Below, one piece after another: positions 1,402 through 23,266 of a stretch of 36,848 bases of DNA. The DNA comes from a virus. The translations under genes and the position numbers were made by a program. Under the pieces are notes generated by a model, which saw nothing but the letters and a program-made list of their open reading frames with translations, was not told where the DNA came from and searched no databases. Numbering within the stretch: position 1 is the stretch's first letter; each line of letters starts with the position of its first letter. The stretch covers positions 1-36,848 of IMG/VR virus record IMGVR_UViG_3300031825_000400. One strand, written 5' to 3'.

Positions 1402-1417
1402 TATCCCACGTGTGATA
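1402..1417. promoter_or_regulatory. Palindrome B, copy 1 (TATCCCACGTGTGATA)
   Basis: This matches the 16-bp palindrome TATCCCACGTGGGATA with one mismatch. It lies 8 bp after the stop of the plus-strand operon and 18 bp from palindrome A at 1436. The same pair recurs at 4943/4975 and 23215/23249. Confidence 0.65.
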
Positions 1418-1434
1418 AGCCCGACTGTCACCAA

Positions 1435-1454
1435 ATGTCTGCCACGGCAGACAT
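1435..1454. promoter_or_regulatory. Palindrome A, copy 1 (TGTCTGCC-AC-GGCAGACA)
   Basis: A perfect inverted repeat of 8-bp arms with a 2-bp centre, plus a flanking A/T pair. With almost no loop it suits a protein dimer on DNA better than an RNA hairpin. Other copies are at 4942-4961 and 23215-23232. Confidence 0.75.
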
Positions 1455-1464
1455 CGGAACAAAA

Positions 1465-1508
1465 AAAGAGCCCCGCGCGGTACCGGTCGATACCGCGCGG
1501 GGCTCTTT
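1465..1508. terminator. Strong bidirectional intrinsic terminator
   Basis: An 18-bp perfect stem (1465-1482 with 1491-1508) with an 8-nt loop. A run of A lies on the left side and T on the right, so it can act for the plus-strand operon ending at 1394 and for the late operon ending at 1530. Confidence 0.9.
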
Positions 1509-1524
1509 ATGGCACGTGCCATAA
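1507..1524. promoter_or_regulatory. Palindrome C, copy 1 (TTATGGCACGTGCCATAA)
   Basis: A perfect 18-bp palindrome that abuts the terminator and ends 6 bp before the stop of the late operon's last gene. A near copy lies at 26282-26297, upstream of a regulator gene. Confidence 0.65.
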
Positions 1525-1529
1525 TCGCG

Positions 1530-1928
1530 TCAGGTCAACGTCTCGCCGCTGCCGTAGAAGGTGATCGTCCCTTTCCGGAAGGAGTAGGGCTTGCCGGCGT
1601 CATTGATCCACACGCAGTCCACGTAGACCACGGTGGGCGTTTCTGGGAGCCCCGCGGTTGCCGCCGCCGGGATCAGCGCGATCGCGGTGCCTCCGGTGGG
1701 GCTGGTGATCTCGATCTCTTCCGCCACCGCGCTACTGAGGCGAAAGAGGGCGGCGGCGTCCAGGTCGGCCAGGTCCAGCTTTCCCGTGACGCGGACCACG
1801 CCCCCCGTGATGTCCTGCGCCGTCTCCGTGCCACTCTGCGTTTTAGTAACCGCGAGATCTAGCTCCAGTTGCCGACCGCGCGTCCACTCCTCGGTAAAGT
1901 CGTTCCACTTATGGCTGGTCTCACTCAT
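1530..1928 (-). CDS. Phage tail-associated beta-sandwich protein (putative)
   Basis: This 132-aa protein is the last gene of the late operon. Its pattern (an N-terminal 'FTEEWTRGRQLELDL' strand, a central 'ALFRLSS' helix, then an alanine-rich linker and the strand pair 'TVVYVDCVWIND' / 'SFRKGTITFYG') is like small Ig-like or BppU-N-like domains found beside phage tail fibres, which define allowed property/value pairs of strands. The match is by pattern only. It overlaps the upstream fibre gene by 8 nt (1921-1928), which indicates co-translation and a related structural role. Confidence 0.55.
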   Translation of the reverse strand: MSETSHKWNDFTEEWTRGRQLELDLAVTKTQSGTETAQDITGGVVRVTGKLDLADLDAAALFRLSSAVAEEIEITSPTGGTAIALIPAAATAGLPETPTVVYVDCVWINDAGKPYSFRKGTITFYGSGETLT

Positions 1929-3621
1929 CGCCGCAGATCCTCGCTCTTCCGCCGTAGCGGGTCCGAATAGTCACCGTGCCGCCGTAGGCTACCCGAATGG
2001 CCGTGCTCCCTCCGTACGCCGTCAAGACGGCCACGCTGCCGCCGTAGCAGATCGGTCCGGCGTTGGGGGTCGAGACCGTCAGCCCCGCCGGCTTACCCGC
2101 GAGGACGTACGCCCCGACCACTCCAGCCAGCCGCCGGGTGACCCGCAAGTCGGCAGCGGCGCCAGTATGCGTGAACCCACCGGCTGCAGCCGTGAAGTTG
2201 CGCCCGCGGCGAAGGGTGGCATCTGTACCGGCGAGATCCACCGCTCCAGCTTCGGCCGGCAGTCGAAGACTGCGCACCAGCCCGGCCGAAGCTCCGGAGA
2301 GCACGCAGCTCCCAGCAGCGGCCGTCAGCGTCTTACCATTGCGGAGCCCCGCGCCTTCTCCGGTGTGGGTAAACGCCCCTGCCGCTACCGCCAGGCGATG
2401 CGCCTGCAGGAGCGCGGCGGAGGACCCACTGAGGCTGAAAGCCCCGGCGTCGGTCACGATGCGCAAGCTGCGGATTAGTCCCGCACTTTGCCCCGAGAGG
2501 ACCGCCGCGCCGGCGCTGGCCGACAAGCGGCGCTCCGCCCGGAGGTTAGCTGCCGCGCCGGTCTCCGCGAAGCCGCCCGCGCCGGCTCCCAGGGTGCGCG
2601 TACTCCGCAGGGTGGCCGCTTGTCCCGACAGGGTAAACGGCCCCGTCGCGCCCGCGACCTTACGCGTCGCCACTAGACCCGCCGGCTGGCCAGTGAGAGT
2701 GACGGCCCCGGCTGCCGCGCTCACCCTCCGCGTGGCTCGGAGGGTGGCTGCCTGACCGGAGAGGGTGAACGCCCCCGCGACCGCAGGAACGCGCAGCCCC
2801 CGCTTCAAGCCCGCTGCGCTGCCGGTTTCCGCAAAGCTGCCGGCAGCCGCTGCTAGGGTGTAGTTATTGAGAGCGGTTGGCCCGGGATACCAGAGCGGCT
2901 CCTGATAGAGCCGCCACCGCCCCTCAGAGTAGAGGTCCTGCACCTGGCCAGGCGCCCACGGCGCAGCATCCTTCGCCACCCGCAGATCGGAATACCAGGC
3001 GTGGGCGTAGTTCCCGTTGAATGAGCCCGCCCGGCCCATGACCCGGTTCCCGCACGAGCTTTGCGCCGTCAAGGAGCCGGAATAGCTGGACGTGGCCCAC
3101 ACCACGCCGTTCACGTAGATCGTGATCGTCTTGGCGGTGTGATCCCGCACCACTGCGATATGGAGCAGATCGCCGGCGGTGAACGTCAGGGTAGACTGGA
3201 AGTTCGCTGCGCCCCCGCTCTGGAACCAGCCGACCTTCCCGGCGAGGATGTAGAGGCTGCCCTGGCTGTTATTGCCCGCCGCGTCGAAGTCGGCCCAGAG
3301 GTAGCCGCCGGACCCGCCGTTGGTCATCGGCCGGACCCAGAGCGACAGGTTCAGGTTGCCGGAAACGTCGAGCTTGGCGATCTTGCCAAAGTCCAGGTAC
3401 CAGCTCGTGCCGTCCGAGCGGGCCGCGGGTCCGAGCGGACCGACACCCCACTCCCGGCCGTTGGTAAACGTGCCGTCGCAGTTGTTGCCGGATAGGTCCC
3501 GAACGTTCAGGCCGTCCCGCTCAGAGAACGGGACGGCCTGAACGAGTCCGGAGGCCGTCGTATCGTCCGGCTGGAAGACCGGATCGGCCGGCTTGAGATA
3601 CCGGTCCTGCAAGAGCAGCAT
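1921..3621 (-). CDS. Tail fibre/appendage protein: LamG-like domain plus tandem repeats
   Basis: This 566-aa protein has an N-terminal stretch of about 50 residues, then a concanavalin A/LamG-like lectin domain at about residues 50-240 ('LNLSLWVRP', 'HIAVVRDHTAKTITIYVNG'). Twelve consecutive 22-residue repeats of the form 'xxAAAGxFxLTGxAAxLRxxRR' follow, and then four short [AC]YGGxxxI repeats. LamG domains bind glycans and such repeats build fibrous shafts, so a receptor-binding appendage is likely. The start has AAGGAG 6 nt upstream. Repeat number may vary among relatives. Confidence 0.75.
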   Translation of the reverse strand: MLLLQDRYLKPADPVFQPDDTTASGLVQAVPFSERDGLNVRDLSGNNCDGTFTNGREWGVGPLGPAARSDGTSWYLDFGKIAKLDVSGNLNLSLWVRPMTNGGSGGYLWADFDAAGNNSQGSLYILAGKVGWFQSGGAANFQSTLTFTAGDLLHIAVVRDHTAKTITIYVNGVVWATSSYSGSLTAQSSCGNRVMGRAGSFNGNYAHAWYSDLRVAKDAAPWAPGQVQDLYSEGRWRLYQEPLWYPGPTALNNYTLAAAAGSFAETGSAAGLKRGLRVPAVAGAFTLSGQAATLRATRRVSAAAGAVTLTGQPAGLVATRKVAGATGPFTLSGQAATLRSTRTLGAGAGGFAETGAAANLRAERRLSASAGAAVLSGQSAGLIRSLRIVTDAGAFSLSGSSAALLQAHRLAVAAGAFTHTGEGAGLRNGKTLTAAAGSCVLSGASAGLVRSLRLPAEAGAVDLAGTDATLRRGRNFTAAAGGFTHTGAAADLRVTRRLAGVVGAYVLAGKPAGLTVSTPNAGPICYGGSVAVLTAYGGSTAIRVAYGGTVTIRTRYGGRARICGDE

Positions 3622-3630
3622 GGGTGCTCC

Positions 3631-4026
3631 TTAAGCGGTGACGCCGGTCTGCTGCCGCGTCTTCACCGTGACGGTCACACTCGCGCCGCTGGCGTTCTCC
3701 ACCCGGATCTTGAACGCCCCGAAGCTGTGCGGCACCCAGAAGCCGCGGCGATGCGTGGTGCTCACCGTAAACGGCATCTCGAACCCGTAAGGCTTATCTG
3801 CCACCGCTTCGTACGTGGTGGTATCTACCTCTCGCAGCACGTAGACTTTGAGTCCCACGGTCGCGGTGGCTCCGTAGGCGGCGGCAATCGAAACCTCGGT
3901 GCCCAGCTTGGAGTTGTTGCTGAGCGCGGCCGTTTCGGCGTTGCCGGAGTTGGCGACGGCCGAGGCAGCAATCGACGTCGCCTGCCAGGCCGCCGCGCTG
4001 TCTTGGGTGGGATAGAAGCTACCCAT
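3631..4026 (-). CDS. Phage structural protein, unknown (beta-rich)
   Basis: This 131-aa protein has an alanine/serine-rich N-terminus and then beta-strand-rich sequence ending in an Ig-like 'FKIRVENASGASVTVTVKT' pattern. Proteins like this often sit among tail fibre genes as adhesin or decoration components. It overlaps the upstream gene by 8 nt and precedes the fibre gene by 9 nt, so it belongs to the same translational cluster. No specific family recognised. Confidence 0.6.
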   Translation of the reverse strand: MGSFYPTQDSAAAWQATSIAASAVANSGNAETAALSNNSKLGTEVSIAAAYGATATVGLKVYVLREVDTTTYEAVADKPYGFEMPFTVSTTHRRGFWVPHSFGAFKIRVENASGASVTVTVKTRQQTGVTA

Positions 4027-4474
4027 CGGAGTTCTCCGCGTCTCGCGCTGCGGCGAGGTCGTCTGCGTCCACCAGGCGGCCCAGCACCGCTACGGGCGCC
4101 GGCACCTCGGCCGCCCAGTCCGGGTCGGCGATTAGTTCCGCCAGTTCCGTCTGGAGCGCGGTATGCTCCGCCTCCGTGATGTGGCCCCGGGCATAACAGT
4201 AGGTGACCCACCGCTGCACCGTCACGCGTTCGCGCGCGGCGATGGCGCGGTTGATCTCCACCAGGAGGTTCGCTCCCTCCACGTGCGTCAGGCTCTCCTG
4301 CGAGAGCTTGGCGATCAGAGAGAGCGCATCCATCGGTCGCGCAAGCTCCGGGCAGGTGCCGGGACTGGGCGCGAGGGCGGCGTTGAGCGCAGTTGCCAGC
4401 GCCGCGTCATCTAGTGCCCAGTCCGTGACCTGGGCACGGAGCCAGGCCACTGCGGCGGGAGTAGGGTTTGCCAT
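4019..4474 (-). CDS. Hypothetical phage protein, helical
   Basis: This 151-aa protein appears mostly alpha-helical ('AVAWLRAQVTDWALDDAALA', 'LLVEINRAIAARE'), with a C-terminal 'ITEAEHTALQTELAEL' segment. Proteins of this type occur next to tail fibre genes, and a fibre-assembly or minor structural role is possible. It follows the 4487-4912 gene by 12 nt and overlaps the next gene by 8 nt. Function unknown. Confidence 0.6.
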   Translation of the reverse strand: MANPTPAAVAWLRAQVTDWALDDAALATALNAALAPSPGTCPELARPMDALSLIAKLSQESLTHVEGANLLVEINRAIAARERVTVQRWVTYCYARGHITEAEHTALQTELAELIADPDWAAEVPAPVAVLGRLVDADDLAAARDAENSDG

Positions 4475-4486
4475 CGGCCGACCTCC

Positions 4487-4912
4487 TTATGCCAGGGTCA
4501 GGACGCCGGTAGTGGGATCATAATCCACCGTGAAACTCTCGCCATCCGCGAGCGTGATCGAGGAGCCATAATCCCACCAGCCGATCAGCGGATCGGCGGG
4601 CGAGGTCGGCGTGTCGTTGTAAAGCACGGCGTACCGGAACGGCCCGATCGAACCACCGGAAGCCGTGAACACCACGTCGCCCAACACCAGCTTGAAGGTG
4701 CCGCTCGTCTGGACCGCGCTGGTGATGGAAGGAGCCGTTCCGCCGGCAGTGTAGCCGTTCCCCGCGGAGATCTCCGTGAGGGCGCTCTTGATCGCGTTGG
4801 TGGCTACCGGTGCGGTATTGGTGAGGAGTACCTTGAGTGTGCCGGTCGCGAGGTTGTGCACGCCCTTCGCTACGTCTTCCACGAACTGGTTGAACTTGTT
4901 AAATGCGGCCAT
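4487..4912 (-). CDS. Conserved phage virion-type protein
   Basis: This 141-aa protein starts 'MAAFNKFNQFVEDVAKG' and contains 'LKVLLTNTAPV', 'EISAGNGYTAGG' and 'FRYAVLYNDT'. I recognise this as a pattern common in tailed-phage genomes near fibre genes, usually annotated as hypothetical or minor structural. The beta-rich body ends with a Gly/Asp turn region. It lies just downstream of the A/B palindrome pair at 4942-4990, which separates it from the fibre gene at 4998-6041. Exact role unknown. Confidence 0.65.
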   Translation of the reverse strand: MAAFNKFNQFVEDVAKGVHNLATGTLKVLLTNTAPVATNAIKSALTEISAGNGYTAGGTAPSITSAVQTSGTFKLVLGDVVFTASGGSIGPFRYAVLYNDTPTSPADPLIGWWDYGSSITLADGESFTVDYDPTTGVLTLA

Positions 4913-4941
4913 CGAGCAGGGTCTCCATGAGAAAAGGGCCG

Positions 4942-4961
4942 ATGTCTGCCGTGGCAGACAT
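4942..4961. promoter_or_regulatory. Palindrome A, copy 2 (TGTCTGCC-GT-GGCAGACA)
   Basis: A perfect copy of palindrome A with flanking A/T pair, in the 85-bp gap between late genes at 4912 and 4998. It is followed 14 bp later by a degenerate palindrome B. Confidence 0.75.
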
Positions 4962-4974
4962 TCCGGCCCGGATT

Positions 4975-4990
4975 TACATCACGTGGGATA
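4975..4990. promoter_or_regulatory. Palindrome B, copy 2 (one good half-site)
   Basis: The right ten bases ACGTGGGATA match palindrome B exactly, while the left half (TACATC) has three mismatches. It is paired with palindrome A at the same 32-34 bp start-to-start spacing seen elsewhere. Confidence 0.5.
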
Positions 4991-4997
4991 GAAGCGG

Positions 4998-6041
4998 TTA
5001 CACGAAGGCGACGGCCGCGGCGGTTACCCGGCTATCCATCGCGGCCATCACGTAGAAGGCTTTCGCGGTGCTCTCGGTGAGGGTGAGCTGGATGACGCCC
5101 GAAGCGTTGCTCATCACGATCCAGTGTTTTCCGGCGGTGATCGTCTGGATGACCGTACCGACGCCGAACGTCACGCCTCCGTCCGGAGCGGCGGCGCACT
5201 CCGCGCCGAGGGAGGCGTCACCGATCCACACGCGGATCAGGCGGGCCTCGCTGGTGAGGTTCGCCGCGTATTCTTTGAGCTGGATCGTCACGGTGCGAGC
5301 GTTGGCCGCCTCCGCGGCGGCCGTCACGCCGGGCGCGCTGCCGAGGTCCTTCTGTGCCTGCGCGGAGAGGGCCAGGGTGAGGTCCGCGGTAAGCGCCCCG
5401 CCGCCCTGCATCCCCGTGCCAGCCGAGACCAGGCGGCCGGCGTGGAGGGCTTGCCCGGAGCTGGTGCCCTGTCCCAGGCCGGTGACCTTGAAGCCACCCG
5501 CCGCCAGATCGCTCCCGAGTGTCTTATTGAGGAAGGTCTGCGCCGCCGCGAGGAGCGCCACCGTGTCCGCCGCTACCGCCGGCAGCGTGTGCTGCTGGGT
5601 CGCGTTCGGCCCCACGGTGGCGGCCAGGAGCGCGGTGAGCTTCAGAGCGGTGGCGGTCCGATCGTGACTGCCCCGTACGATGTTCGTCCCATCGCTGTAG
5701 ACGACGGCGCCGTAACCCTGGGAGATCACCACGCCGGTACCGGCGGCAGTCTTCACCGTCACGGTGAAGGCGCCCGTGGTGTTGTTGAGCACCTGCCAGG
5801 CCTTCCCCCAAGCGGGCAGGATCAGTGAGAGGTTGCCGGTGAGCACGCCGGTGAGATTGAGGAAGTTCGCGCGGGCGATCGTGCTCGTGGGCGTCACGTC
5901 GGCGCTGCCCGAGAGGTCGATCTCCGTGTAGCTGCCGAGGAGTGCGTCCAGCACGTTCGCCACCAGGTCGAACCAGACATCATCCGCCGCGCCTCCGGTC
6001 ACGAAGTCATTCTTCAGGGAGAGGTTCGGGGTCACACTCAT
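4998..6041 (-). CDS. Phage tail fibre-like protein
   Basis: This 347-aa protein has features of tail fibres: a beta-rich N-terminus with 'TGNLSLILPAWGKAWQVLNNTTGAFTV' (split here by turns), an alanine-rich middle with 'GGFKVTGLGQGT', and the motif 'GTGMQGGGALTADLTLAL', widespread in fibre and spike proteins. The C-terminal ~90 residues form a separate beta domain. Its start overlaps the stop of the upstream 67-aa gene (TGATG), indicating coupling. A role in host adsorption is inferred from motifs and position after the tail hub gene. Confidence 0.7.
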   Translation of the reverse strand: MSVTPNLSLKNDFVTGGAADDVWFDLVANVLDALLGSYTEIDLSGSADVTPTSTIARANFLNLTGVLTGNLSLILPAWGKAWQVLNNTTGAFTVTVKTAAGTGVVISQGYGAVVYSDGTNIVRGSHDRTATALKLTALLAATVGPNATQQHTLPAVAADTVALLAAAQTFLNKTLGSDLAAGGFKVTGLGQGTSSGQALHAGRLVSAGTGMQGGGALTADLTLALSAQAQKDLGSAPGVTAAAEAANARTVTIQLKEYAANLTSEARLIRVWIGDASLGAECAAAPDGGVTFGVGTVIQTITAGKHWIVMSNASGVIQLTLTESTAKAFYVMAAMDSRVTAAAVAFV

Positions 6042-6244
6042 CAGCTAGTTCTCCGGGGCAGAAAGCCGTCCTTCGGTTCGGTGATCCCGACGCGACCGAA
6101 CGGGGTCCACACGTCGGCGAGGAAGATCCCGGTGGTGACGCCGTTGGGGTCCTGCGGACCGGCGGTGCGGGCAGCGCTGCTGACAGCTCCCGCCGCCCGC
6201 CGCTCCGCCTCGTTCTGGATCCGCCGCACTTCATCCGGTCGCAT
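6041..6244 (-). CDS. Small phage protein between hub and fibre genes
   Basis: This 67-aa protein starts at the ATG overlapping the stop of the upstream hub gene and ends in a TGATG overlap with the next gene, so it is tightly coupled on both sides. The first half is a charged helix ('DEVRRIQNEAERRAAGAVSSA') and the second half has 'GIFLADVWTPFGRVG'. The coupling argues that it is real. It may be a small connector or chaperone; function unknown. Confidence 0.6.
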   Translation of the reverse strand: MRPDEVRRIQNEAERRAAGAVSSAARTAGPQDPNGVTTGIFLADVWTPFGRVGITEPKDGFLPRRTS

Positions 6245-8358
6245 CAGTTGAGCCTCCGTAGTCCGACCTGCGTCTCCAGGTCCGTGTAACCCTTCCGGGT
6301 CTCCCAGGTGTGGGCGAGGGTCGTCACCACGAACTGCGTGTTATCCGGGATGCCGGCGCCCGCGAAGCCTACCAGCTCGATCTTGTCCCGCCGGCCTAAC
6401 GTCGGATCGAGCGGGAGGGACAGGTCGCCCTCGCGCTTGATCTGGAACGTCTCCTGCGCGAGGCTCTGGCAGTGCCCGGTAACCAGGCCATCGTCCGGCG
6501 TGCCGGAGAGCTCCCGCAGTCGGCACTCCGTCCAGGGGCAGAACCGCGAGCTTCCGGCATCCGTCTCCGCCGTGCTGTCGACGTCGTAGCGGAACACCAG
6601 CTGCCCGCCTTCGTTCGTGCCGTAGACGAACGCCGCGGTGCCGGCCTCTTTCCAGTCCACCCGGTAACCCAGGTTGCGGACGGTATCCCACACGGCGGAG
6701 GTGGCGTCGCCGGCGCTGAAGGTCCGCGTCACCGTGCTGGCGACGTAGTCTTTCGGCAGGGTGTAGATGACGCCGGTGTCGTCCACCCCCACCTCCTGGT
6801 TGCGCTCGGCCATGATGCGCTTCAGGGTTTCCCACGGGAGCTCCGTGGGTTTCGTCAACTCGTTCGGGTCCTCGGCGCTGCCGGGCGAGATCGCTCCGGA
6901 CGCGCCCCACACGAACCAGGAGCGATAGGCCGCATTCAGGCCGCGCGCCGCCAGGATCTCGTCCGCCGCCGCATTCGGGGTCTGCCCCGCGAGGGGCAAC
7001 TGCAGGAAGGGCGTCCAGGGCGAGCGCTTGAACCGGGCGCTCCCGTTGTGGAGGTGGAAGGTCACCAGGACCTTGTTCAGCTCCGCGCCGCCCCAGGCAG
7101 CCTCGAACCCTTCCGCGTAGCCCACGAACGAGGAATAGGTCTCCAGGCTGTCGTCCGAGAGCCGCCACCCCAACCACACTTCCATGCGGCGCCACCGGTA
7201 GGGCTCGAAGTCGTTGGGCTCGAACGCGTCCACGGCGAACGTGAACGAGGCGTTGCCCCCGTCCAGGTCGGGAGGCTTGGTGATCCCGGCCCGGATCAGT
7301 CGGCTGTCGAACGGCGTGGTAGAAGTGGTGCCCGTGGTCTGCACCACCGGCGGGATCCGGTAATGGACCGCGCGCACACTGCCGCCAAAGTACCACGTGA
7401 ACGGCGTGCCGGCCTGGAAGCCCGGCGTCAGCGTGATCCGGTAGCGCGCCTGCTTCGCCAGGGGGACGCCGAGGTCACTGAACACCACGCTGCCGCCCGT
7501 GCCGAGCGGAGCGGTAGAACGAGACTTCGCAAAGCTCACCGTCCAGCTGGCCCGGGCCCGCTCCAGAAGCTTCGTAAAACTATCGAACGTCGCCGTGTAG
7601 AGGCGGAGCTGGTGGACCCCCACCGTGGGGCCGGTGCCGCGCCCGCGGAAGGTGATCGCGCCCGCCGCCAGGGTCACCGTTTCGCCCGGCGGTGCGTACC
7701 AGGTGTAGCTGTTCCCGAAGTCCGAGGAGACGCCGAGCTGGCCCTCTTCCACGCGGACGAACAGCGTCATCTCCTGCTCGTCCGCAAAGCCCTGCGACTT
7801 CGGAGGAGTGGGGAGGTCCTGCACGGCGCGCCAGGCGCCCGCCACGTAGCGCACCAGGAAGGTGCCATCCCCCACGAACTCGATACCCCATTCGGTGTTG
7901 AGCTCGATCCGGAAGAACGGCACGTAGGTGGTATAGTCCCACGTGCTCGGCGTGTCCGGCAGCTTCACCGTAAAGGCGACGGGGGCGTTGAGCGGCCGGT
8001 GGTACGTGGTGGCGGCAGACCAGCTCGTCGCCGTTTCCGCGTGGTCGTACTGGGTGAGCTTGTAGACCCGCCGCCCGCCGACGCTCTGCCGCTCCTCTTC
8101 CCACGTGGCGGGCGTCGTGGTGAACTGCGCCAGGCGCGTGTCCTGCGGGATCAAGAACGCGCGGTGGATCAGGCCGGTTTCCGGGAAGCTCTGCAGGTAG
8201 GAGCGCCCGCGCGCGTCCACCGAAGACGTCCCGGCCTCCCACTCCTTGCTCAGGATGGAATACCAGCCGAGGCCCGGGTCCGTGCAGAGCGGGTCCCCGT
8301 GCGCGGGCTCGAACACCTTGATGGAGGCGAACGCATACTTGCGAGTCGGTGCCGGCAT
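6244..8358 (-). CDS. Large distal tail protein (putative hub/baseplate component)
   Basis: This 704-aa protein is assigned the ATG at 8358, two bases after the upstream stop and with GGAG 8 nt before it; an upstream in-frame start at 8403 would overlap the preceding gene. The sequence is beta-rich throughout, with segments such as 'MTLFVRVEEGQLGVSSDFGNSY' (broken by turns) and a C-terminal region 'DKIELVGFAGAGIPDNTQFVVTT' like phage tail hub or baseplate proteins. Position two genes after the tape measure fits a tail-tip protein. Family membership is not certain. Confidence 0.6.
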   Translation of the reverse strand: MPAPTRKYAFASIKVFEPAHGDPLCTDPGLGWYSILSKEWEAGTSSVDARGRSYLQSFPETGLIHRAFLIPQDTRLAQFTTTPATWEEERQSVGGRRVYKLTQYDHAETATSWSAATTYHRPLNAPVAFTVKLPDTPSTWDYTTYVPFFRIELNTEWGIEFVGDGTFLVRYVAGAWRAVQDLPTPPKSQGFADEQEMTLFVRVEEGQLGVSSDFGNSYTWYAPPGETVTLAAGAITFRGRGTGPTVGVHQLRLYTATFDSFTKLLERARASWTVSFAKSRSTAPLGTGGSVVFSDLGVPLAKQARYRITLTPGFQAGTPFTWYFGGSVRAVHYRIPPVVQTTGTTSTTPFDSRLIRAGITKPPDLDGGNASFTFAVDAFEPNDFEPYRWRRMEVWLGWRLSDDSLETYSSFVGYAEGFEAAWGGAELNKVLVTFHLHNGSARFKRSPWTPFLQLPLAGQTPNAAADEILAARGLNAAYRSWFVWGASGAISPGSAEDPNELTKPTELPWETLKRIMAERNQEVGVDDTGVIYTLPKDYVASTVTRTFSAGDATSAVWDTVRNLGYRVDWKEAGTAAFVYGTNEGGQLVFRYDVDSTAETDAGSSRFCPWTECRLRELSGTPDDGLVTGHCQSLAQETFQIKREGDLSLPLDPTLGRRDKIELVGFAGAGIPDNTQFVVTTLAHTWETRKGYTDLETQVGLRRLN

Positions 8359-8360
8359 CG

Positions 8361-13934: not shown

Positions 13935-13961
13935 AGGAGCCCGCCAGTGTGGCGGGCTCCT
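13935..13961 (-). terminator. Hairpin between membrane protein and tail chaperone
   Basis: AGGAGCCCGCC and GGCGGGCTCCT form an 11-bp perfect stem with a 5-nt loop, followed on the minus strand by CTTTC. It is a probable partial terminator that lowers chaperone expression relative to the tail tube gene. Confidence 0.65.
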
Positions 13962-15123: not shown

Positions 15124-15132
15124 GATCAGCTC

Positions 15133-15570: not shown

Positions 15571-16064
15571 GGGATGGCCCTCTTGATCGCCAGGTCTACC
15601 GCTGCCTCGAACCCGGGGCGCACCTCGGCCACCGCTTTACTGAGGAACGGTCGCGCGGCGATCTTGCCATCCAGGGAGCCCAGTTCTAGCGTCTCGCCAT
15701 ACTCGGCGCCGACGTTTACCTCGGCGGATAACCGGCCCGTCGAGCGGGTCTGGATGCTGCTCACCAGCAAGCCTTCGTCGGTGGCCGGCGCTTCGCCCGG
15801 GGCGCTCGCCTGGTGGGTCCGCGACTTCTTCCCCTTGCGGGCGGTGAAGGCGACCTGCTTCCCGCTCTTCGTGGTGAAACTGACTTCGCGTTCACCCTTT
15901 TCGTAGATCCGGCCCGTCTTCGGTCCGTCCATGATGGCCAGCTTGGCCTGCGCTTCCACCTGGTGGGCAGCCACCGACACCACGGCGGCGAGTTGGTCCC
16001 GCACGCGCTGCGGCAGGCCGGTGAGCCGATCCTTCGTCACCGTCAGGGTGAAGCTCGCGGGCAT
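15567..16064 (-). CDS. HK97 gp10-like neck / head-tail protein
   Basis: This 165-aa protein is assigned the ATG at 16064, which overlaps the upstream stop (TAATG); a longer in-frame start lies inside the upstream gene. The helix 'RVRDQLAAVVSVAAHQVEAQAKLAI', the 'GRIYEKG' segment, and the C-terminal pattern 'YGETLELGS...ARPFLSKAV' are typical of the HK97-gp10 family, which acts at the head-tail junction. The order with flanking connectors is conserved in siphophages. Confidence 0.8.
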   Translation of the reverse strand: MPASFTLTVTKDRLTGLPQRVRDQLAAVVSVAAHQVEAQAKLAIMDGPKTGRIYEKGEREVSFTTKSGKQVAFTARKGKKSRTHQASAPGEAPATDEGLLVSSIQTRSTGRLSAEVNVGAEYGETLELGSLDGKIAARPFLSKAVAEVRPGFEAAVDLAIKRAIP

Positions 16065-16435
16065 TAGAGGGTCCTGCAGGTGCAGTCCAAAGAGGTGTCC
16101 CACGCCTTCGCGGGGGGCACGGTTAAAACCTGAAAGGTGGTCCCGTTCACCCGAAGTCGCTGCCTGGACGTAACGGGCGTGCCGTAAGGGAGCCGCACGA
16201 TATACCGCAGCTCGCTCACGGCCTTGCCGCCTTCGATCCGCTCCCCGGGCGCCGCAGCATCCATCAGGAAGCAGGCCAGCGGTTCCGACTCCGCGGCGTG
16301 GTCCCAGTCGTCTTTCCAGCCGCCCGCCTGACCGGTTACCCGGGGTGCGGTCAGGATCACGGCCGTGTCCGGCATCGCCTCTTCCACACAGGCGCGCATC
16401 GAGGCGAGCTGATCAGCATCCAGCATTGATGTCAC
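16064..16435 (-). CDS. Head closure / head-tail connector protein
   Basis: This 123-aa protein shows the pattern of small phage head-closure proteins: a short N-terminal helix 'ASMRACVEEAMPDTAVIL', a mostly beta body 'VSELRYIVRLPYGTPV', and 'LRVNGTTFQVLTVPP' near the C-terminus, as in SPP1 gp16-like and related families. It overlaps the upstream connector gene by 23 nt and the next gene by the TAATG junction. Assignment rests on length, fold pattern and order. Confidence 0.7.
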   Translation of the reverse strand: MTSMLDADQLASMRACVEEAMPDTAVILTAPRVTGQAGGWKDDWDHAAESEPLACFLMDAAAPGERIEGGKAVSELRYIVRLPYGTPVTSRQRLRVNGTTFQVLTVPPAKAWDTSLDCTCRTL

Positions 16436-16973
16436 TCCGGGTCAGGTGCGCGATCTCCGGGCGCTGCTGGGCGCGGTACTGCGCGGCCGTGGTCAGGATC
16501 ATCGCATGCTGCTGGGAGCGCACGAACTGCCCGCTGCCGGGTCCGAAGGTGAACTCCAGCTTCTTGGCCGCCGCCCACTTCTCCAGCACATCCGCCGCGG
16601 CGGCGTAGAGATCGTAGGTCTTGCCGATCAGGTAAACCGGCGGAAGGGTGTCGCTCGCGAACGTCCAGTGCCCGGTCTCCAGGTCGCTGGCGGCCGGGGT
16701 GAGCTCGTTATAGGCGCTGTCATACAGCTTGGCGTCCGCTTCCCAGTCACCGAGCCCGGCGTAGTAGTCCAGGTAGGCCACCCCGCCACCCGGCAGCCGG
16801 AACTCTTCCGGGTCCAGGGAGAGATACCGCACCACCTGGCGCCGCCGGTCCAGCGCGGTCTGCAGCTGATCGTTCGAGAAGACCGGCTTCCGGCCGCCCG
16901 TGGGGACCACGGGATCGCTGATCAGGTCGCGCAGCCGGGTCACGAGGCCGGCGCAAGTGGTGCGGTAGCTCAT
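16413..16973 (-). CDS. Head-tail adaptor (connector) protein
   Basis: This 186-aa protein lies at the first connector position after the capsid. It starts 'MSYRTTCAGLVTRLRDLISD' and contains 'VFSNDQLQTALDRRRQVVRY' and a helix 'LYAAAADVLEKWAAAKKLEF', a layout resembling gp6/gp15-type adaptors that bind the portal. The ATG is just downstream of the 65-aa gene's stop. Family assignment is by pattern and gene order. Confidence 0.7.
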   Translation of the reverse strand: MSYRTTCAGLVTRLRDLISDPVVPTGGRKPVFSNDQLQTALDRRRQVVRYLSLDPEEFRLPGGGVAYLDYYAGLGDWEADAKLYDSAYNELTPAASDLETGHWTFASDTLPPVYLIGKTYDLYAAAADVLEKWAAAKKLEFTFGPGSGQFVRSQQHAMILTTAAQYRAQQRPEIAHLTRSDINAGC

Positions 16974-16976
16974 GGG

Positions 16977-17174
16977 TTACTCCGTGGGCGGCTGGTCGTC
17001 GCCGGTCTTCTCGCCGACCTTCTTCGCGGGCTTCGGCACTTCGAGGCCCTGCGCCGCGTACCAGCCGGCGATTTCATTGTCGGTGGCCAGGCGGCAACCC
17101 TGACCCAGCAACTCTTTCGCGCGGTCGTCTTCCACGGTGTGAACCCCGCCGCGCTTGTTCGTAATGAACTTCAT
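16977..17174 (-). CDS. Small basic phage protein after the capsid gene
   Basis: This 65-aa protein begins 'MKFITNKRGGVHTVEDDRAKELL' (broken here by turns) and ends in a charged, disordered tail. Short proteins of this type are common between capsid and connector genes, sometimes as minor head components. It is separated from the major capsid gene by a 32-bp perfect palindrome. Function unknown. Confidence 0.6.
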   Translation of the reverse strand: MKFITNKRGGVHTVEDDRAKELLGQGCRLATDNEIAGWYAAQGLEVPKPAKKVGEKTGDDQPPTE

Positions 17175-17203
17175 CGATCCGTCCTGCTTTCCGTCGGGAA
17201 CGG

Positions 17204-17235
17204 GCCGGGTTTATCCCACGTGGGATAAACCCGGC
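17204..17235. promoter_or_regulatory. Perfect 32-bp palindrome containing palindrome B
   Basis: The core TTTATCCCACGTGGGATAAA (17210-17229) is extended by perfectly paired GCCGGG/CCCGGC flanks. It lies between the major capsid stop and the next gene. With no loop it could be a dimer-binding site, or an RNA hairpin marking mRNA processing after the capsid gene. Confidence 0.75.
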
Positions 17236-17243
17236 GAGAGAGA

Positions 17244-18155
17244 CTAGGAGAGGACAACCACCCCGGACGCGTCCCGCAGCTCCGCCACCCCGTAGAGGAT
17301 GTCGAAGCCGATGCGGTGGCCGCGGGCGTTCATGTCGTAGCTCTTCAGCACGCGGATCGCGAGGCCGCTGTCCGGGTCGACGATGGTCGTCGCCATGACG
17401 CCGCTGCCCGCCTCGGGAGACTGGAAGGGGCGAGTGGCCAGGATGAAGGCATCCTTCCGGAAGGCCAGGTTCTTCGTACTGTTCGGGCTGCCGGCGACCA
17501 CCGGGACCGCCTGCGAGACGAACAGGTTGAAGCCGTAGAGCTTCCCGATCGCGCCTTCGGCGTAGCCATCCGGCTTGCTGTTGGCGAAGTACGTCTGGAG
17601 GCTACTGTCTGCGAGCAGGGCGATCTCATCCTTGGTGGAGATCACCAGGTTGCGGCCCTCTTGCGGCTGCTTGGCGTCGGTGAGCGTCTTGCGCGCGGTC
17701 CGGATCACCGCCGGGGTGAGGTCGGTGCCGCTCGTGCCGATGCTGGTGGAGAGGCCGCTATAGAGCGCGAAGAGGTCGTCTTCCACCTTCTCGGCGAGCG
17801 CGATCGCGGCCGGCTCGACCCACTGGTCCAGGAGCTCCACACTCGCCTGCGCGCGGCCAAAGTCCTCGATGATGAAGTCGACGTACTTGTGGTTGGAGAG
17901 CGTGACCGGCATGGACGTGCCGCCGGTCGGAGTCTGGACCGTCGCGTTGGTGTCTTCCGACTTGCTGGATGCGGTGAACGTGCCCGGGTAGGGGATGTTC
18001 AGGGTCTTGCCCTTGAAGCCCGGTTCGTAGTCGGTGTCGCGCGCCACGAGCTTCGCCAGAACGATGTTCTTGCGGAGCACGGTGAGGGCGCGCTGGGCCC
18101 ACATCTCCGGGATGAACCCGGAGGTGCCGGCCAGGGTGCGCGTGATATTGCTCAT
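17244..18155 (-). CDS. Major capsid protein (HK97-fold)
   Basis: This 303-aa protein follows the scaffold gene. It shows capsid features: 'PEMWAQRALTVLRKNIVLAKLV' near the N-terminus, 'GKTLNIPYPGTF', the 'KYVDFIIEDFGRAQ' E-loop/spine-helix region, and a C-terminal 'GHRIGFDILYGVAELRD' segment, as in P22-coat-like HK97-fold capsids. It assembles into the icosahedral head with the scaffold upstream. The stop is 9 bp before the 32-bp palindrome. Confidence 0.85.
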   Translation of the reverse strand: MSNITRTLAGTSGFIPEMWAQRALTVLRKNIVLAKLVARDTDYEPGFKGKTLNIPYPGTFTASSKSEDTNATVQTPTGGTSMPVTLSNHKYVDFIIEDFGRAQASVELLDQWVEPAAIALAEKVEDDLFALYSGLSTSIGTSGTDLTPAVIRTARKTLTDAKQPQEGRNLVISTKDEIALLADSSLQTYFANSKPDGYAEGAIGKLYGFNLFVSQAVPVVAGSPNSTKNLAFRKDAFILATRPFQSPEAGSGVMATTIVDPDSGLAIRVLKSYDMNARGHRIGFDILYGVAELRDASGVVVLS

Positions 18156-18161
18156 CGTCTA

Positions 18162-18788
18162 TTACCCTTCGGTGATGCGCCCCTCGGCGAAGGCCCGGTG
18201 AATAGCGGCCTCGTTCGCCGTGTAGAAAGCGCGGTCGGCGATCTGGGAGCGGGTGAAGGTCTGGCCTCCGCCCGCGCGTCGGTTCCCCGGTGCCCCCGGA
18301 GAGGAGGGGTCTTCGACGGACCTGCCGTCTCCAACCAGGTAAGGCTTGTCGGTCACGAGCTTCTTCAGCAGGTCCGCGACATTCTTGGGCTCGCCGTCCG
18401 CGTCGAACTCGATGTCGTCCTTGATCAGCCGGTAGGCTGCATCCGGATCGATGATCTTCGCGTCCACCGCAGCGACTTTGACTTCCGCCCGAGCGATTCG
18501 CGTCTTGGCGGCGGAAACGGATTTCTCCGCTTCTTCCGCGCGCTTCTGTAGCTTCTCGGTGTCCGAAAGCTTGGCGTCTTCCAGCTCCTTGAGCCGCTTC
18601 TCTGCCGCGGTCGCTCGAGTGCGGTGGGAAGCGTTCTCTTCCCGCAGGCTCTTGACGTAGGCCTCGTCAAAGGTCTTTGGGGTGGCTGGGTCCGCGGGAG
18701 GCGCGGCCGGATCAGCCGGCGGAGCCCCGGGAGGCGGATCGTCCGGAGCGAAGTAGATACCTAGCAGACGGTCGCTGAACCTGTGCAT
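18162..18788 (-). CDS. Capsid scaffolding protein
   Basis: This 208-aa acidic/basic protein is disordered and Pro/Ala-rich at the N-terminus ('PPGAPPADPAAPPADP'), coiled-coil in the centre ('EENASHRTRATAAEKRLKEL' and on through 'AEEAEKSVSAA'), and helical at the C-terminus ('IADRAFYTANEAAIHRAF'). This is the usual layout of siphophage scaffolds, which direct capsid assembly and leave before packaging. The gene lies directly before the major capsid. Confidence 0.85.
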   Translation of the reverse strand: MHRFSDRLLGIYFAPDDPPPGAPPADPAAPPADPATPKTFDEAYVKSLREENASHRTRATAAEKRLKELEDAKLSDTEKLQKRAEEAEKSVSAAKTRIARAEVKVAAVDAKIIDPDAAYRLIKDDIEFDADGEPKNVADLLKKLVTDKPYLVGDGRSVEDPSSPGAPGNRRAGGGQTFTRSQIADRAFYTANEAAIHRAFAEGRITEG

Positions 18789-18885
18789 CTCGTGTTCCTA
18801 TCTCCCGCCGGCGCCTGGCCGGCTGGGGGTGTGGGGATCAACCCCGTACGCAGAACGGGCCGACCCCGAAGAGCCGGCCCATAGA

Positions 18886-19947
18886 TCAGTTGAGTGGGAG
18901 CGCCTTGAACGGCAACTCCCAGCGTACCGGACCCCATTTGGGATCCTCGCGGTAGCCCACCAGGTCTCGGAGACGCAAGCGGCTGTCCTGGTACGCCTCG
19001 TACTTCTGCCGTCCCAACGTCTTCCGCTGGAACGCTTCGGGTTGCCGCGCGAACCACTCCTCGCCTCTCTCCCGCTTCGGTCGAGTGTCCGGGATCGATG
19101 GATCTCCGAGCAGCTCCGCAAAGCTCTTGACTACCGGCACCGGCGTACACCGGCAGTTCACGTGGCTTCCGAAGTGCTCGGTAACCGGGAACTCTTGCCC
19201 GTCCATCGCGAGGCACATGGCGCAGGTGCGGCCCGAACGGCTCGCCGTCCAGCGCCACTTCTCGACCACTTCCGCGTTGGCCTGGAAACCCCGGATGGAG
19301 CTCTCCCGGTAGGCGCGCAGCGTCTCCGTTCGCGAGATCCGGAGCGCCCGCACCAGGTCTCCGCCGAGGTCCTCCTGGATCAGCTTTGCCGTGCGCTTGA
19401 TGCCGCGCCCGGTGGCCACCCCCTGGATCAGGTGCTTGCGGACGCTCTCACTCGCCGAGGGCCCGAGCTCGTCCAGGAGCTTGCGGAGCGGGGTTCCGTC
19501 CCCGGTGTAGCCCACTAGCTCTTTGAGCGCTGCCTTCGGGAGCCGCTGGAAAGAGACGCTCACCCCTGCCGGCGCGTCGGCGGTCTGGAGCTGCACCAGT
19601 TGCGCCGCGTGGGACTGGGCAGCTTCCACCGCGGTGGCCTGCTCGGCGGTGATCGTCGCGTCAGCGAACTCCACGAAGGTGAGGAGCTGGGCTTCTACCT
19701 CGCGGAGCAGGTTCTCCAAGCGGGATCGCTCCCGGTCGTCATCCGTCTCCGCCTCGGTATCGCGGCCGAGGAGCCAGAGAATGCCGCCTTCTTTCGCCTT
19801 CGCTCGCCGCGCTTCCAGAGCGTCCAGCCGGGCCCGGATCTCCGTCCAGGACTGCCCGTAAGCCCGAACCAGGCGGCCCGTGGCCTGCGCGTCCCGCGCG
19901 ACTACTTCATCATGGAAGCGGTCCGCCGCCGCGTAGAGATCGGACAC
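18886..19947 (-). CDS. MuF / SPP1 gp7-like minor head protein
   Basis: This 353-aa protein starts at the GTG at 19947, 3 bases after the portal stop. It contains the MuF C-terminal core: 'ISRTETLRAYRES', then 'CAMCLAMDGQEFPV' and 'HVNCRCTPVPV', with the conserved Cys pairs and His. Proteins of this class sit inside or at the portal of the head and are injected or aid ejection. The N-terminal ~150 residues are helical. Placement between portal and scaffold is canonical. Confidence 0.88.
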   Translation of the reverse strand: MSDLYAAADRFHDEVVARDAQATGRLVRAYGQSWTEIRARLDALEARRAKAKEGGILWLLGRDTEAETDDDRERSRLENLLREVEAQLLTFVEFADATITAEQATAVEAAQSHAAQLVQLQTADAPAGVSVSFQRLPKAALKELVGYTGDGTPLRKLLDELGPSASESVRKHLIQGVATGRGIKRTAKLIQEDLGGDLVRALRISRTETLRAYRESSIRGFQANAEVVEKWRWTASRSGRTCAMCLAMDGQEFPVTEHFGSHVNCRCTPVPVVKSFAELLGDPSIPDTRPKRERGEEWFARQPEAFQRKTLGRQKYEAYQDSRLRLRDLVGYREDPKWGPVRWELPFKALPLN

Positions 19948-19950
19948 GGA

Positions 19951-21372
19951 TTACCCTCCTGCCGGGTCCGCATTCGGATCGGCGCCCGGGTCCTGCCCCT
20001 TATCGAAGCCGTCCAGCAGGCCGGCGCCCAGCGCTTTGGCGTCCGCCTTCTCCTTGGCCCGCTTCGCCGCCTCGTCCGCCGGGTTGTAGCCACGCTTGGT
20101 CAGCAGGGTATCCGTCGACGCGCCCAACTGCTGATCGAGGAGCGCGGTCTCAGCATCGCTCTTCGGGTCGGAAGGCAGCAGGGCCGGCCAGTGGATCTTC
20201 ACCAGGTGGTTCGCGCTCTTCCGCCAGAGCTGCAGCAGCGCCACGGACACGTTGATCAGCAACTCCCCGTACAGGATCCGCTTGTCCCGGGTCTTCTCCA
20301 GGAGCGGCTGATAGAGGATCTGCAGCGCGAGTCCGGAGAGCTGGCCGAGATCGCTCACCTTCCCGGTCGCGACTTCCGGTATGCGCGAGATCTCGTGGAA
20401 GAGACTCTTCAGCTCTCGGTAGAACTCGATACTGGAGGCGAGGTCGCTCTGCATCTCCAGGTTCCAGACTTTTGCGTCCGGGTTGGCCAGCTTGATTACG
20501 CCGTCCGCGCCAATGTCGAACGGCTTCACCCCGGCCGAGGCCATCGCTCGCTGCCCCGGAGAGTTCGGCGCGATCAGTGGCGCGTTGATGCCGGTAACCA
20601 CCGTCTTCGGGTGGGCGTGGTGCCGGAGGATGCGCCCGGTGTTGCTCACGTTGAAGTTGAGGGCCTTGTTCAGGTCCACCAGCGCCGACTCCAGATCGCT
20701 GTACCCGTGGTAGGAGTTCGGCGCCGGGAGGTTCTGGCAGTGAAAGATCGGCGCCCAGTCATACGGCCAGGGGGTGGGCTCGCGGCGGACGATCCACTGC
20801 CCGCCGGTCGCACCTTCGTAATCGGTAATCGTCCAGCGCGTGGAGTCGGCGTCGTCTCGCTCGATCACCTGCCGCCGCACGACCGGCTTCCGGGTGGCGT
20901 GGCTGATGGTGTTCCACTGGTTGACGTAGGCCAACACCTCGGTGTAGTCGTCTTCGTCCGTGACCACCGTGATGTTGGCCGGGTCCAGGACCACCACCCG
21001 CGGGAAGGTGGAGGCGCTCTTCGCCGGCTTCAGCCGCAAGAACACATCGCCGCACACCCCGCCGTTGGTGCCGATGTCGAGGAGCGTGCTCATCAGCCGG
21101 TTGGAATCCCAGCACGCCTTCAGCCAGGTGTCGGCGTCGCTCTTCGCCTGGCCGTCCACCTCGAAGCTGATCCCGTCCGGGAAGAGGAAGCTGCGGCCCT
21201 TCTCGACCACCGTCTGCCCGAAGCCGAGGAGGATGTTATCGTCCGGCGTCCCGGGCTCCACTTTCAGCGGCTTCGGGAGCTGGTTCTCGTACGCCCGCCA
21301 CGCATTCATAATGCGGGTGCGGCGCTCGTGATCGGCCAGGTAGGCCTGTTCTAGGTAGAGTTGGTCGATCAT
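19951..21372 (-). CDS. Portal protein
   Basis: This 473-aa protein matches SPP1 gp6-like portals: 'RIMNAWRAYENQLPKPLKV' near the N-terminus, 'LDIGTNGGVCGDVFLRL', 'NPDAKVWNLEMQSDL' and the helical 'LSGLALQILYQPLLEKT' segment that forms the channel. It makes the dodecameric ring used for packaging and tail attachment. Its ATG overlaps the terminase stop (ATGA). The acidic, Gly/Pro-rich C-terminus is probably disordered. Confidence 0.9.
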   Translation of the reverse strand: MIDQLYLEQAYLADHERRTRIMNAWRAYENQLPKPLKVEPGTPDDNILLGFGQTVVEKGRSFLFPDGISFEVDGQAKSDADTWLKACWDSNRLMSTLLDIGTNGGVCGDVFLRLKPAKSASTFPRVVVLDPANITVVTDEDDYTEVLAYVNQWNTISHATRKPVVRRQVIERDDADSTRWTITDYEGATGGQWIVRREPTPWPYDWAPIFHCQNLPAPNSYHGYSDLESALVDLNKALNFNVSNTGRILRHHAHPKTVVTGINAPLIAPNSPGQRAMASAGVKPFDIGADGVIKLANPDAKVWNLEMQSDLASSIEFYRELKSLFHEISRIPEVATGKVSDLGQLSGLALQILYQPLLEKTRDKRILYGELLINVSVALLQLWRKSANHLVKIHWPALLPSDPKSDAETALLDQQLGASTDTLLTKRGYNPADEAAKRAKEKADAKALGAGLLDGFDKGQDPGADPNADPAGG

Positions 21373-22676
21373 GAGTAGATAGAGGGTCCGTAGCTGACTT
21401 CTTCCAGGCCGAGGGCGGGAGCCACGTAGCGCAGAGCATCGGCCAGGTGGAACTTGCTCTTGTCGGCGATCTCGTCCGTGGGCAGGCCCTGCTTGTCGAG
21501 CTTACGCTTGTAGTTGAGCAGGTCGCCGCGGAGCCCGCGGCAGCTCTCGAACACGTACAGCCGGCGCATCTTGAGCAGCGCGTAAACGCGATCAATCCCG
21601 GCTTCTACGTCCGCGACGTAGGGCTGCGCCATCGGCACACCGGCGGCGCCCCAATCCATCCGCTGTTGCGTCTCCGAGGGGCTGCCGCCGTACCAGCCGA
21701 TCACGTTTTCGGCCCCTGCAAGTTCCAGGGCAGCGCCCGCGTGCTCCGGAGAACTCTGGCCACCACCATGGCTCTCCCGGTAGGCATAGAACAGGCCGGT
21801 TTCGGGGTTCTCGGCGACCCACACGAGCGCCGTGTTCACCGCACCGAAGTCGGTGCCGACCTGGCGCGGCCAGTGCGGCGGAAGCGGGAAATCCTTCACC
21901 ACGTGACCGCCGATCTCGTCTATGTAGCAGTCGTAGATCGCGCCCGCGGGCCGGGTAAAGATCCCTCGATACATCATGTTGAAGCGCCAGGCGGGCATAC
22001 TCGCCTGGCGCTCTTCGAACTCCTCGCGGCTGAATGCAGGGTTCTCCGTGCTGTCGAACTGCACGATGTCTATGGTGGGGTCGAGGGCGACCCACTTGTC
22101 GTAGATGTTGACCTTCAGCCACCCCAGGTCATAGATTGTGGTCGCGCCCAGTGCCCGACCGCGAAACAGTGAGAGCCGGCGCAGGATCGCTTCCCAGATC
22201 TCCAGCGAGTATTCCCGCTGCCCGCACTCGTCCAGCAGCGCCGCCTTCGCAGTGGCGCTCTCCAGGTTGGACGGCGCCGACGCGGAGCAGAGCATGATCC
22301 GTCCCCACATCGGATCATCCGGGGTTTTCGCCCAAAACTTCCCGGTACTCGGATCCCGCAACTCGATCACGCGGGCCGACTTGTGGTAGCGCCCGATCTT
22401 CAGCACGTGCACGAAGACCGCAAGCATTTCCGGGAGCAGCTTCTTCTGGAAGAGCGCGAAGGAACTGGTCACGGCTAGGTAGTCGTTCAGTTCGCCGGGC
22501 TTGGCCGTACGCTGGATCTCGCGCCACAGCCACCACGGCCCCCAGCTCGTCTTTCCGCCCTGCGTGCCGGCCAAGACGAAGACAAAGCGCCGTTCCGAGT
22601 CCCAAGCTCGCTGCTGTCCGGAGTGGAAGGAGAGAACGAGCTTACCTCGCTCAACTCGCCAGAGGTTCTTTGCCAT
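21369..22676 (-). CDS. Terminase large subunit
   Basis: This 435-aa protein has the packaging ATPase motifs: Walker A 'GTQGGKT' (residues 37-43) and Walker B 'ALLDE' (D149, E150). The C-terminal RNase H-like nuclease is marked by 'VGTDFGAVNT' (D276) and a late 'FHLADALRYV' segment with another acidic residue. It cuts and pumps DNA into the head. It overlaps the small subunit by 26 nt and the portal by 4 nt. Confidence 0.94.
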   Translation of the reverse strand: MAKNLWRVERGKLVLSFHSGQQRAWDSERRFVFVLAGTQGGKTSWGPWWLWREIQRTAKPGELNDYLAVTSSFALFQKKLLPEMLAVFVHVLKIGRYHKSARVIELRDPSTGKFWAKTPDDPMWGRIMLCSASAPSNLESATAKAALLDECGQREYSLEIWEAILRRLSLFRGRALGATTIYDLGWLKVNIYDKWVALDPTIDIVQFDSTENPAFSREEFEERQASMPAWRFNMMYRGIFTRPAGAIYDCYIDEIGGHVVKDFPLPPHWPRQVGTDFGAVNTALVWVAENPETGLFYAYRESHGGGQSSPEHAGAALELAGAENVIGWYGGSPSETQQRMDWGAAGVPMAQPYVADVEAGIDRVYALLKMRRLYVFESCRGLRGDLLNYKRKLDKQGLPTDEIADKSKFHLADALRYVAPALGLEEVSYGPSIYS

Positions 22677-23199
22677 CAGCCGGGCTCATTCTCTCCACCA
22701 CCACTTCAGTGATAGGCAACTCCCCGCGCTGTCCGTCCGCGCCTTCATGAGTAACGCTGTCGCCCCACTCCTCGCGACGCCGTCTCTTGAGCCAGGACTC
22801 ACCCGCTCGCCAGTCGAACTCCCGGCGTCGGGTCACGGTGCGGGAGGTTACCTCTACCGCTACCGGCTCTTCCACCGTGCGCCCGTCCGGATGCCGCGTC
22901 TTCTTCATGCGGATCTCGGTCTTGGTGGTCTCGGAGATCTCCTCCACGTCCACGCCGAGGGCCGCGTCCTGAATGACCTTTGTAAACTGCAGCTCCACGT
23001 CGGCTTCGGCCTGGTGGACGGCCTCACGGAAGCCCCGGTAGGGACCGGTGAGTTCATCCTCGCCCCGCTGCATCCATTCCAGGTAGGTAGTGAACGAGAT
23101 CCCGCCCGCTTCGACCGACGCCTTACGGGTGGCGCCCAGACGCAGGGCGGAGACGATCCGCTCCTGCACTTTGGGGGTTAGCTTGGTCGGACGGGCCAT
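22651..23199 (-). CDS. Terminase small subunit (putative)
   Basis: This 182-aa protein lies directly upstream of the large subunit and starts 'MARPTKLTPKVQERIVSALR', followed by an HTH 'GATRKASVEAGGISFTTYLEWM', typical of small terminase subunits that recognise the packaging site. The middle is a helical oligomerisation region and the C-terminus is charged. The A/B palindrome pair lies just upstream of its start. Confidence 0.85.
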   Translation of the reverse strand: MARPTKLTPKVQERIVSALRLGATRKASVEAGGISFTTYLEWMQRGEDELTGPYRGFREAVHQAEADVELQFTKVIQDAALGVDVEEISETTKTEIRMKKTRHPDGRTVEEPVAVEVTSRTVTRRREFDWRAGESWLKRRRREEWGDSVTHEGADGQRGELPITEVVVERMSPADGKEPLAS

Positions 23200-23214
23200 C
23201 AGCGTAGGTTCCGG

Positions 23215-23232
23215 TGTCTGCCGTGGCAGACA
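23215..23232. promoter_or_regulatory. Palindrome A, copy 3 (TGTCTGCC-GT-GGCAGACA)
   Basis: A perfect copy 16 bp upstream of the small terminase start, in the gap following the 23248-23874 gene. It is paired with palindrome B at 23247-23266, 14-16 bp away. Confidence 0.75.
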
Positions 23233-23246
23233 TTTGAGCCAGGCGG

Positions 23247-23266
23247 TTTATCCCACGTGGGATAAA
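23247..23266. promoter_or_regulatory. Palindrome B, copy 4 (TTTATCCCACGTGGGATAAA)
   Basis: A perfect 20-bp palindrome, identical to the core at 17210-17229. Its right part encodes the last residues of the upstream gene and its left part contains that gene's stop codon. Confidence 0.75.

Follow-up and report, generated by a model that had tools for sequence, protein, structure and literature searches.

The viral DNA analysed here, IMG/VR record IMGVR_UViG_3300031825_000400 (36,848 bases, taken over its full length and called the window), carries two palindromes, A (TGTCTGCC-NN-GGCAGACA) and B (TATCCCACGTGGGATA). Both are real and repeated, and A is conserved in related phages. B and A are the two halves of a single oriented element of about 59 bp, which is present in three copies at gene borders of the window. 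As first choice, held tentatively and at somewhat less than even confidence, A and B are read from their sequence as predicted sequence-specific DNA sites with a role in the control of late genes.

B and A form one oriented element at three gene borders

The original prediction placed an A/B pair at three distant gene junctions, and this was borne out: A is exact at 1436, 4943 and 23215, and B accompanies it at 1402, 4975 and 23249 with 1, 3 and 0 mismatches, respectively. These numbers are far above those of shuffled sequence, in which A reached a mean of 0.20 copies and a maximum of 2 (3 real copies) and B a mean of 0.05 and a maximum of 2 (4 real copies). No other A was found in the window with up to 3 mismatches allowed. 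The set of copies first described needed correction on two points. A fourth and perfect B at 17212, without A and lying within a 32-bp perfect palindrome (17204-17235), had been overlooked, and the B at 4975 amounts to no more than half a palindrome; what all four B copies have in common is TATCCCACGTG. The spacing was as predicted, with 34, 32 and 34 bp from start to start and 18, 14 and 16 bp between the two palindromes at sites 1, 2 and 3.

1402-1417, plus strand: B of site 1, 1 mismatch, 7 nt past the stop codon of the plus-strand gene ending at 1394
1436-1453, plus strand: A of site 1, exact, 18 bp past B and followed by the terminator at 1465-1508
1465-1508, no strand assigned: strong hairpin flanked by A/T tails (two-way terminator), adjoining site 1
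4975-4990, minus strand: B of site 2, 3 mismatches, 7 nt past the stop codon of the gene 4998-6041
4943-4960, minus strand: A of site 2, exact, 14 bp past B in the sense direction, with a GGGCCG/CGGCCC stem extension and TTTTC
17204-17235, minus strand: 32-bp perfect palindrome with the B core at 17212-17227, without A, 8 nt past the major capsid stop codon
23249-23264, minus strand: B of site 3, no mismatch, overlapping the stop codon that ends gene 23248-23874
23215-23232, minus strand: A of site 3, exact, 16 bp past B in the sense direction, 15 nt ahead of the gene for the terminase small subunit (23199)

The claimed position at gene borders was confirmed, with site 1 behind a plus-strand gene and sites 2 and 3 behind minus-strand genes. 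The two palindromes had been described as occurring in either order, which holds on the plus strand only; in the direction of transcription a stop codon is followed by B and then by A every time. In the sense reading, all three pair sites show a stop codon, then B (at a distance of 7 nt at sites 1 and 2, overlapping the codon at site 3), 18, 14 or 16 nt, A with the centre AC, and then YCGG. Comparison of the window with itself by blastn aligned 23208-23264 with 1402-1460 in inverted orientation (86% over 59 bp, E 2e-10) and 23211-23264 with 4939-4990 in direct orientation (80% over 54). The match between copies 1 and 3 begins at the outer edge of B and stops a few bases past A. With the three copies explained as duplicates of a single oriented element, the spacing near three helical turns loses weight as a sign of paired proteins, which the original prediction had seen in it.

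A is conserved in phages of the same metagenome

A pattern scan of 2.9 million IMG/VR viral contigs for exact A gave 14 contigs, three of which (G001, G002 and L008) come from metagenome 3300031825, as the window does. G002 resembles the window in its SWIM gene (83%), and the window genes with counterparts in it include 399-821 (83%), 886-1209 (70%) and tail genes; L008 resembles it in the capsid (90%), the portal (68%) and the gene 18886-19947 (78%). G001 has DNA homology with G002 and none detectable with the window. Its A stands 6 nt past a stop codon, and the next start follows after 12 nt. The A of G002 is intergenic and has stem flanks as in window site 2, and no homology to window genes is seen in the genes on either side. 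The A of L008 is intragenic; three apparently extra codons, in an alignment judged by eye, complete the dyad there relative to the window. Both 8-bp arms of A are identical in all six copies (three in the window and one in each of the three contigs), and the centre alone varies (AC, GT, AT).

The contexts of the other 11 exact matches are unlike the window sites, so that A looks like a chance occurrence there. With position five of A left free, at least 119 stretches were obtained, and no new contig of metagenome 3300031825 was among the matches listed; a relaxed scan of B (74 stretches) likewise gave no new member of this metagenome. Any homology to window genes was found at 4 of 189 relaxed-scan loci. 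One of the four, G010, has head genes 29-37% identical to those of the window and 3 to 5 palindromes of the TGTCCGCC type, mostly inside genes: TGTCCGCC-NN-GGCGGACA and variants occur at 17852, 18688, 24320, 27560 and 30198, four of these five within late genes and in the same reading frame (derived by hand). This locus was picked through a motif match and hence counts little as evidence.

Other palindromes were noticed in these sequences. Gapless perfect ones occur in G001 (18348-18379, 32 bp), G002 (29898-29929, 32 bp) and L018 (7137-7176, 40 bp), and the core CCCACGTGGG is common to B and to those of G001 and L018. G004 (L174), a viral contig which has A twice, carries many interspersed palindromes between 5834 and 11563, for example GGGCAGACCTGTGTGTCTGCCC and GGGCGAATAATCATTCGCCC.

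An analogous palindrome at possible module borders in Chloroflexota relatives

Three Chloroflexota genomes (G059, G068 and G127), in which the large terminase is about 45% identical to that of the window, share a different palindrome, CACTTGGGAA-W-TTCCCAAGTG, with CACTTGGGAAWTTCCCAAGTG as site. It is present in three of the nine genomes of the family, in 11 exact copies: 7 in G127 (6 of them on contig C24), 1 in G059 and 3 in G068. All 11 lie on phage or phage-like stretches, and those outside C24 are in prophages homologous to C24 or in stretches with local homology to it. C24 (L393, L406, L407), of about 46.6 kb, is probably a circular phage, its first and last 127 bases being identical; it encodes an actin-like protein, a DnaB helicase, a terminase and an HTH_17 protein (38427-38642). 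With genes called mechanically, four of its six sites are located 2 to 20 nt past stop codons, another is 142 nt past a stop codon with a hairpin between, and another stands 26 nt before the actin-like gene. One site precedes the small terminase gene, like window site 3.

At four of the six C24 palindromes, a breakpoint of homology with other elements is less than 100 bp away (3, 32, 2 and 90 bp; random mean 0.47, p 0.0003), and 3 of 5 gene junctions with a palindrome lie at a breakpoint compared with 5 of 64 without (Fisher p 0.0095). Three pairs of copies are homologous downstream only, with scores of 38, 38 and 32 against -8, -10 and -2 on the other side: C24 11417 with G068, C24 11417 with G059 (these two are not independent), and C24 2671 with another G068 contig. 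The G068-G059 pair has homology on both sides, and the remaining pairs share the palindrome without clear surrounding homology.

Phage genomes are mosaics, and what sets their seams is largely an open question. The original prediction had proposed conserved module boundaries as one possible role. This fits the palindrome of the distant relatives, which stands at homology edges; among the window sites only site 1 is near a breakpoint, the homology with G002 stopping at 1367, just short of it. The A/B sites could be linker or module-border sequences with no regulatory role, persisting as recombination patches or as neighbours of cassette insertion, as proposed for the PeSL cassettes of T4-type phages. 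The C24 breakpoints, the one-sided pairs, the end of the G002 homology and the stem flanks retained in G002 beside non-homologous genes all speak for this alternative. However, breakpoints of mosaic phages occur at gene borders anyway, two of the six C24 sites are distant from any breakpoint, A of L008 lies within a gene with homology on both sides, and a homology patch does not require exact dyad symmetry. We place it second after the DNA-site reading, as rather unlikely.

Predicted DNA sites weighed against RNA hairpins

In the preferred reading, A and B would each serve as the dyad target of a dimeric DNA-binding protein and be retained at late-gene borders. After B and A had been joined into the oriented element, this would have spread by copying to three borders, while a fourth has B only. 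The protein that would bind them is probably encoded by the phage, as in the Chloroflexota relatives the analogous palindrome was found only on phage or phage-like stretches. Once bound, it may impede polymerase or silence late operons in the prophage. The sites might serve also as a short shared sequence for module exchange between co-resident phages, and the DNA-site and module-border readings may thus hold together. A bolder and improbable version is that the phages of each host population have a junction palindrome of their own behind genes, marking module joins, a 'docking code' that would be read by a dedicated dimeric protein and would confine module exchange to the group and let late genes be silenced as units. 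A palindrome common to otherwise different phages of one population, its role being taken by another palindrome in distant relatives, would offer a concrete seam marker open to testing, or else a novel kind of dispersed silencing site.

Recognition as DNA rather than RNA is favoured by the sequences, since the arms of A are constant in six copies and since B at site 2 is unpaired and yet keeps TATCCCACGTG. The A of L008, within a gene, also suits a DNA site better than a hairpin at an mRNA end.

Several observations weigh against A and B as protein-bound DNA sites. All A/B sites fold as stable RNA hairpins in the sense direction (z -3.2, -3.2, -4.3 and -6.6), and each late-operon gap of at least 30 nt forms some hairpin, so that the sites may act as RNA. 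At site 2 the pairing of B is lost without compensation. As to conservation in related phages, which the original prediction had made a test, A passed and B did not: B was not found in relatives of the window, the closest large-terminase relative (L024, 68% identical) has neither A nor B, and the G002 junction corresponding to window site 1 has no A. No binding protein for A/B was identified among the phage proteins considered. The sole repressor-like gene seen (33640-34143) adjoins two operator-like dyads of another motif, and the ParB_N domain (PF02195) had no match in the window, G001, G002, G005 or G010, in a search that was positive in 11 of 14 control genomes.

L024 carries, between a tRNA-like sequence and its small terminase gene (3781-3862), a pair of related palindromes that have the arms ACCATTTT and are separated by 24 bp.

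An alternative raised by these folds is that of RNA hairpins at late-gene ends, acting as terminators, 3'-end protectors or processing sites and repeated by cassette copying. Folding as such is inevitable for palindromes. The position of B at the three pair sites (at most 8 nt past the stop codon or overlapping it), the order and strand that follow transcription in three cases out of three, the lower stem and TTTTC of site 2, the same stem with CTTCC in G002, and the presence of unrelated hairpins in other late gaps (for example at 13935-13961) are all compatible with it. Against it, no U-tract is present at sites 1 and 3, at 17204 or at the six C24 sites, TTTTC at site 2 being the only one, and the terminator scan of the window lists no A or B site; intrinsic terminators were rejected on these grounds. 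Moreover, the arms of A are invariant beyond what mere pairing needs, the broken pairing of B at site 2 is uncompensated, A occurs inside a gene in L008 and palindromes of the TGTCCGCC type occur inside genes in G010. This alternative comes third and appears unlikely.

Between two late genes, at 18857-18880 on the minus strand, a ten-pair hairpin with a UUCG loop was also seen.

Comparison with known systems

No described system with this pair was listed in searches of open-licence PMC papers on stoperators, SPBRE, PeSL, N15, Chloroflexi palindromic repeats, module boundaries and parS/Noc, in agreement with the original prediction, and the motif search gave unrelated papers among the 20 listed of 2,775. 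Each of stoperators, SPBRE, the centromere sites of N15 and PeSL cassettes has something in common with A and B, though not the same thing. For stoperators, N15 and PeSL, one or more of the defining features tested failed.

Stoperators of cluster A mycobacteriophages such as L5 had been offered as a precedent, and they too are short, recur several times and occupy small gaps between genes of a temperate phage. According to PMC9283540, L5-type stoperators are 13-bp asymmetric sites in more than 20 copies; they have the same sequence as the repressor's operators, and one repressor binds both. The sites of the window are palindromes in 3 (A) and 4 (B) copies, unlike the operator-like dyads at 33557 and 33617. 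Asymmetry is found only for the B-A element as a whole, which is oriented in three of three copies. The parallel was not supported, and stoperators were rejected as a candidate because the dyads, which probably are the operators of the repressor-like gene, carry another motif.

SPBRE of SPbeta, bound by the tyrosine-recombinase-like repressor MrpR/YopR, recurs in several intergenic regions of a prophage, and its binder was long not known; according to PMC10516654, it is a 15-bp motif in promoter regions of genes. A and B differ in standing behind late-gene stop codons, where a scan confined to sigma-70 promoters gave no promoter-like match. The PeSL cassettes of T4-type phages are repeated stem-loop cassettes between genes; according to PMC4503421 they are tied to module shuffling and contain an early promoter, and the same scan found no such sites at A or B.

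A and B could also be dispersed centromere-like sites for a partition protein, comparable with the inverted repeat (IR) sites of the plasmid prophage N15, which are dispersed over the N15 genome; this is very unlikely. Such sites need SopB/ParB, none of which was found here, and the ParB/parS reading was rejected given the lack of ParB_N in the window and in four other phage records; the ParB_N matches in G127 are on contigs other than C24. The window phage probably integrates, since it encodes an integrase-type recombinase. The agreement of B with the parS variant TGTTCCACGTGGAACA, at 12 of 16 positions, and with NBS, at 10, also counts against it. On the other side, C24, which is probably circular, has a copy of its palindrome just ahead of a gene for an actin-like protein. 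The chromosomal parS consensus TGTTTCACGTGAAACA, as given in PMC7383237, has the centre CACGTG of B; over the full length B agrees with it at 10 of 16 positions and failed as a chromosomal parS site. For A, the likeness to the N15 IR and F sopC centromere sites is one of geometry, by the oligonucleotide table of PMC7205306: N15 IR has an 8-bp arm ending in CC, a 2-bp centre (AC, AT or TC) and then GG, and A is an 18-bp dyad with 8-bp arms and a 2-bp centre, present at three places. The arm sequence is different (7 to 8 of 18 positions identical), and neither B nor the C24 palindrome has this geometry.

Occurrence in host genomes

Across the genomes of 84,980 species, A gave 108 scattered single matches, 64 of them with the bare 8-bp arms, which is near random expectation, and B was absent from all 400 Chloroflexota genomes sampled. 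The original prediction would have suffered had the motifs been common host repeats; A was common in no genome searched. Ordinary host palindromic repeats of the repetitive extragenic palindrome (REP) type, captured by the phage, would account for intergenic palindromes, but in view of these counts such an origin is most improbable. It was provisionally rejected on the basis of the genomes searched.

Relatives of the large terminase were sought in Chloroflexota and Acidobacteriota, and otherwise in single genomes only. They were detected in 6 of 400 Chloroflexota genomes and in none of 396 Acidobacteriota genomes, and Chloroflexota as host phylum is a guess. Phages of Chloroflexota are poorly known, and the sites would give a handle on them if this guess holds.

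Other features of the window

The minus strand carries the capsid, portal, terminase and tape-measure genes, and the last base of the window is the end of the integrase-type recombinase gene. The window is therefore probably a trimmed provirus. A search with Rfam gave no match in it. Genes of putative regulators and the dyads mentioned above are located as follows.

1-243: HTH_17 protein gene
25510-25797: sigma-region-4-like protein gene
33557-33637: two operator-like dyads GGTGGTGATNNTNTCACNACC (33557 and 33617), adjoining the repressor-like gene, with a motif unlike A and B and no further copy elsewhere in the window
33640-34143: repressor-like protein gene

A third palindrome, TTATGGCACGTGCCATAA, is present at 1507-1524. 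Its core was found in 7 viral contigs, none of them related to the window, and the corresponding scan (7 stretches) gave no new member of metagenome 3300031825. A near copy, TTATGGCACGCGCCATAG, lies at 26281-26298, shortly upstream of a likely gene start.

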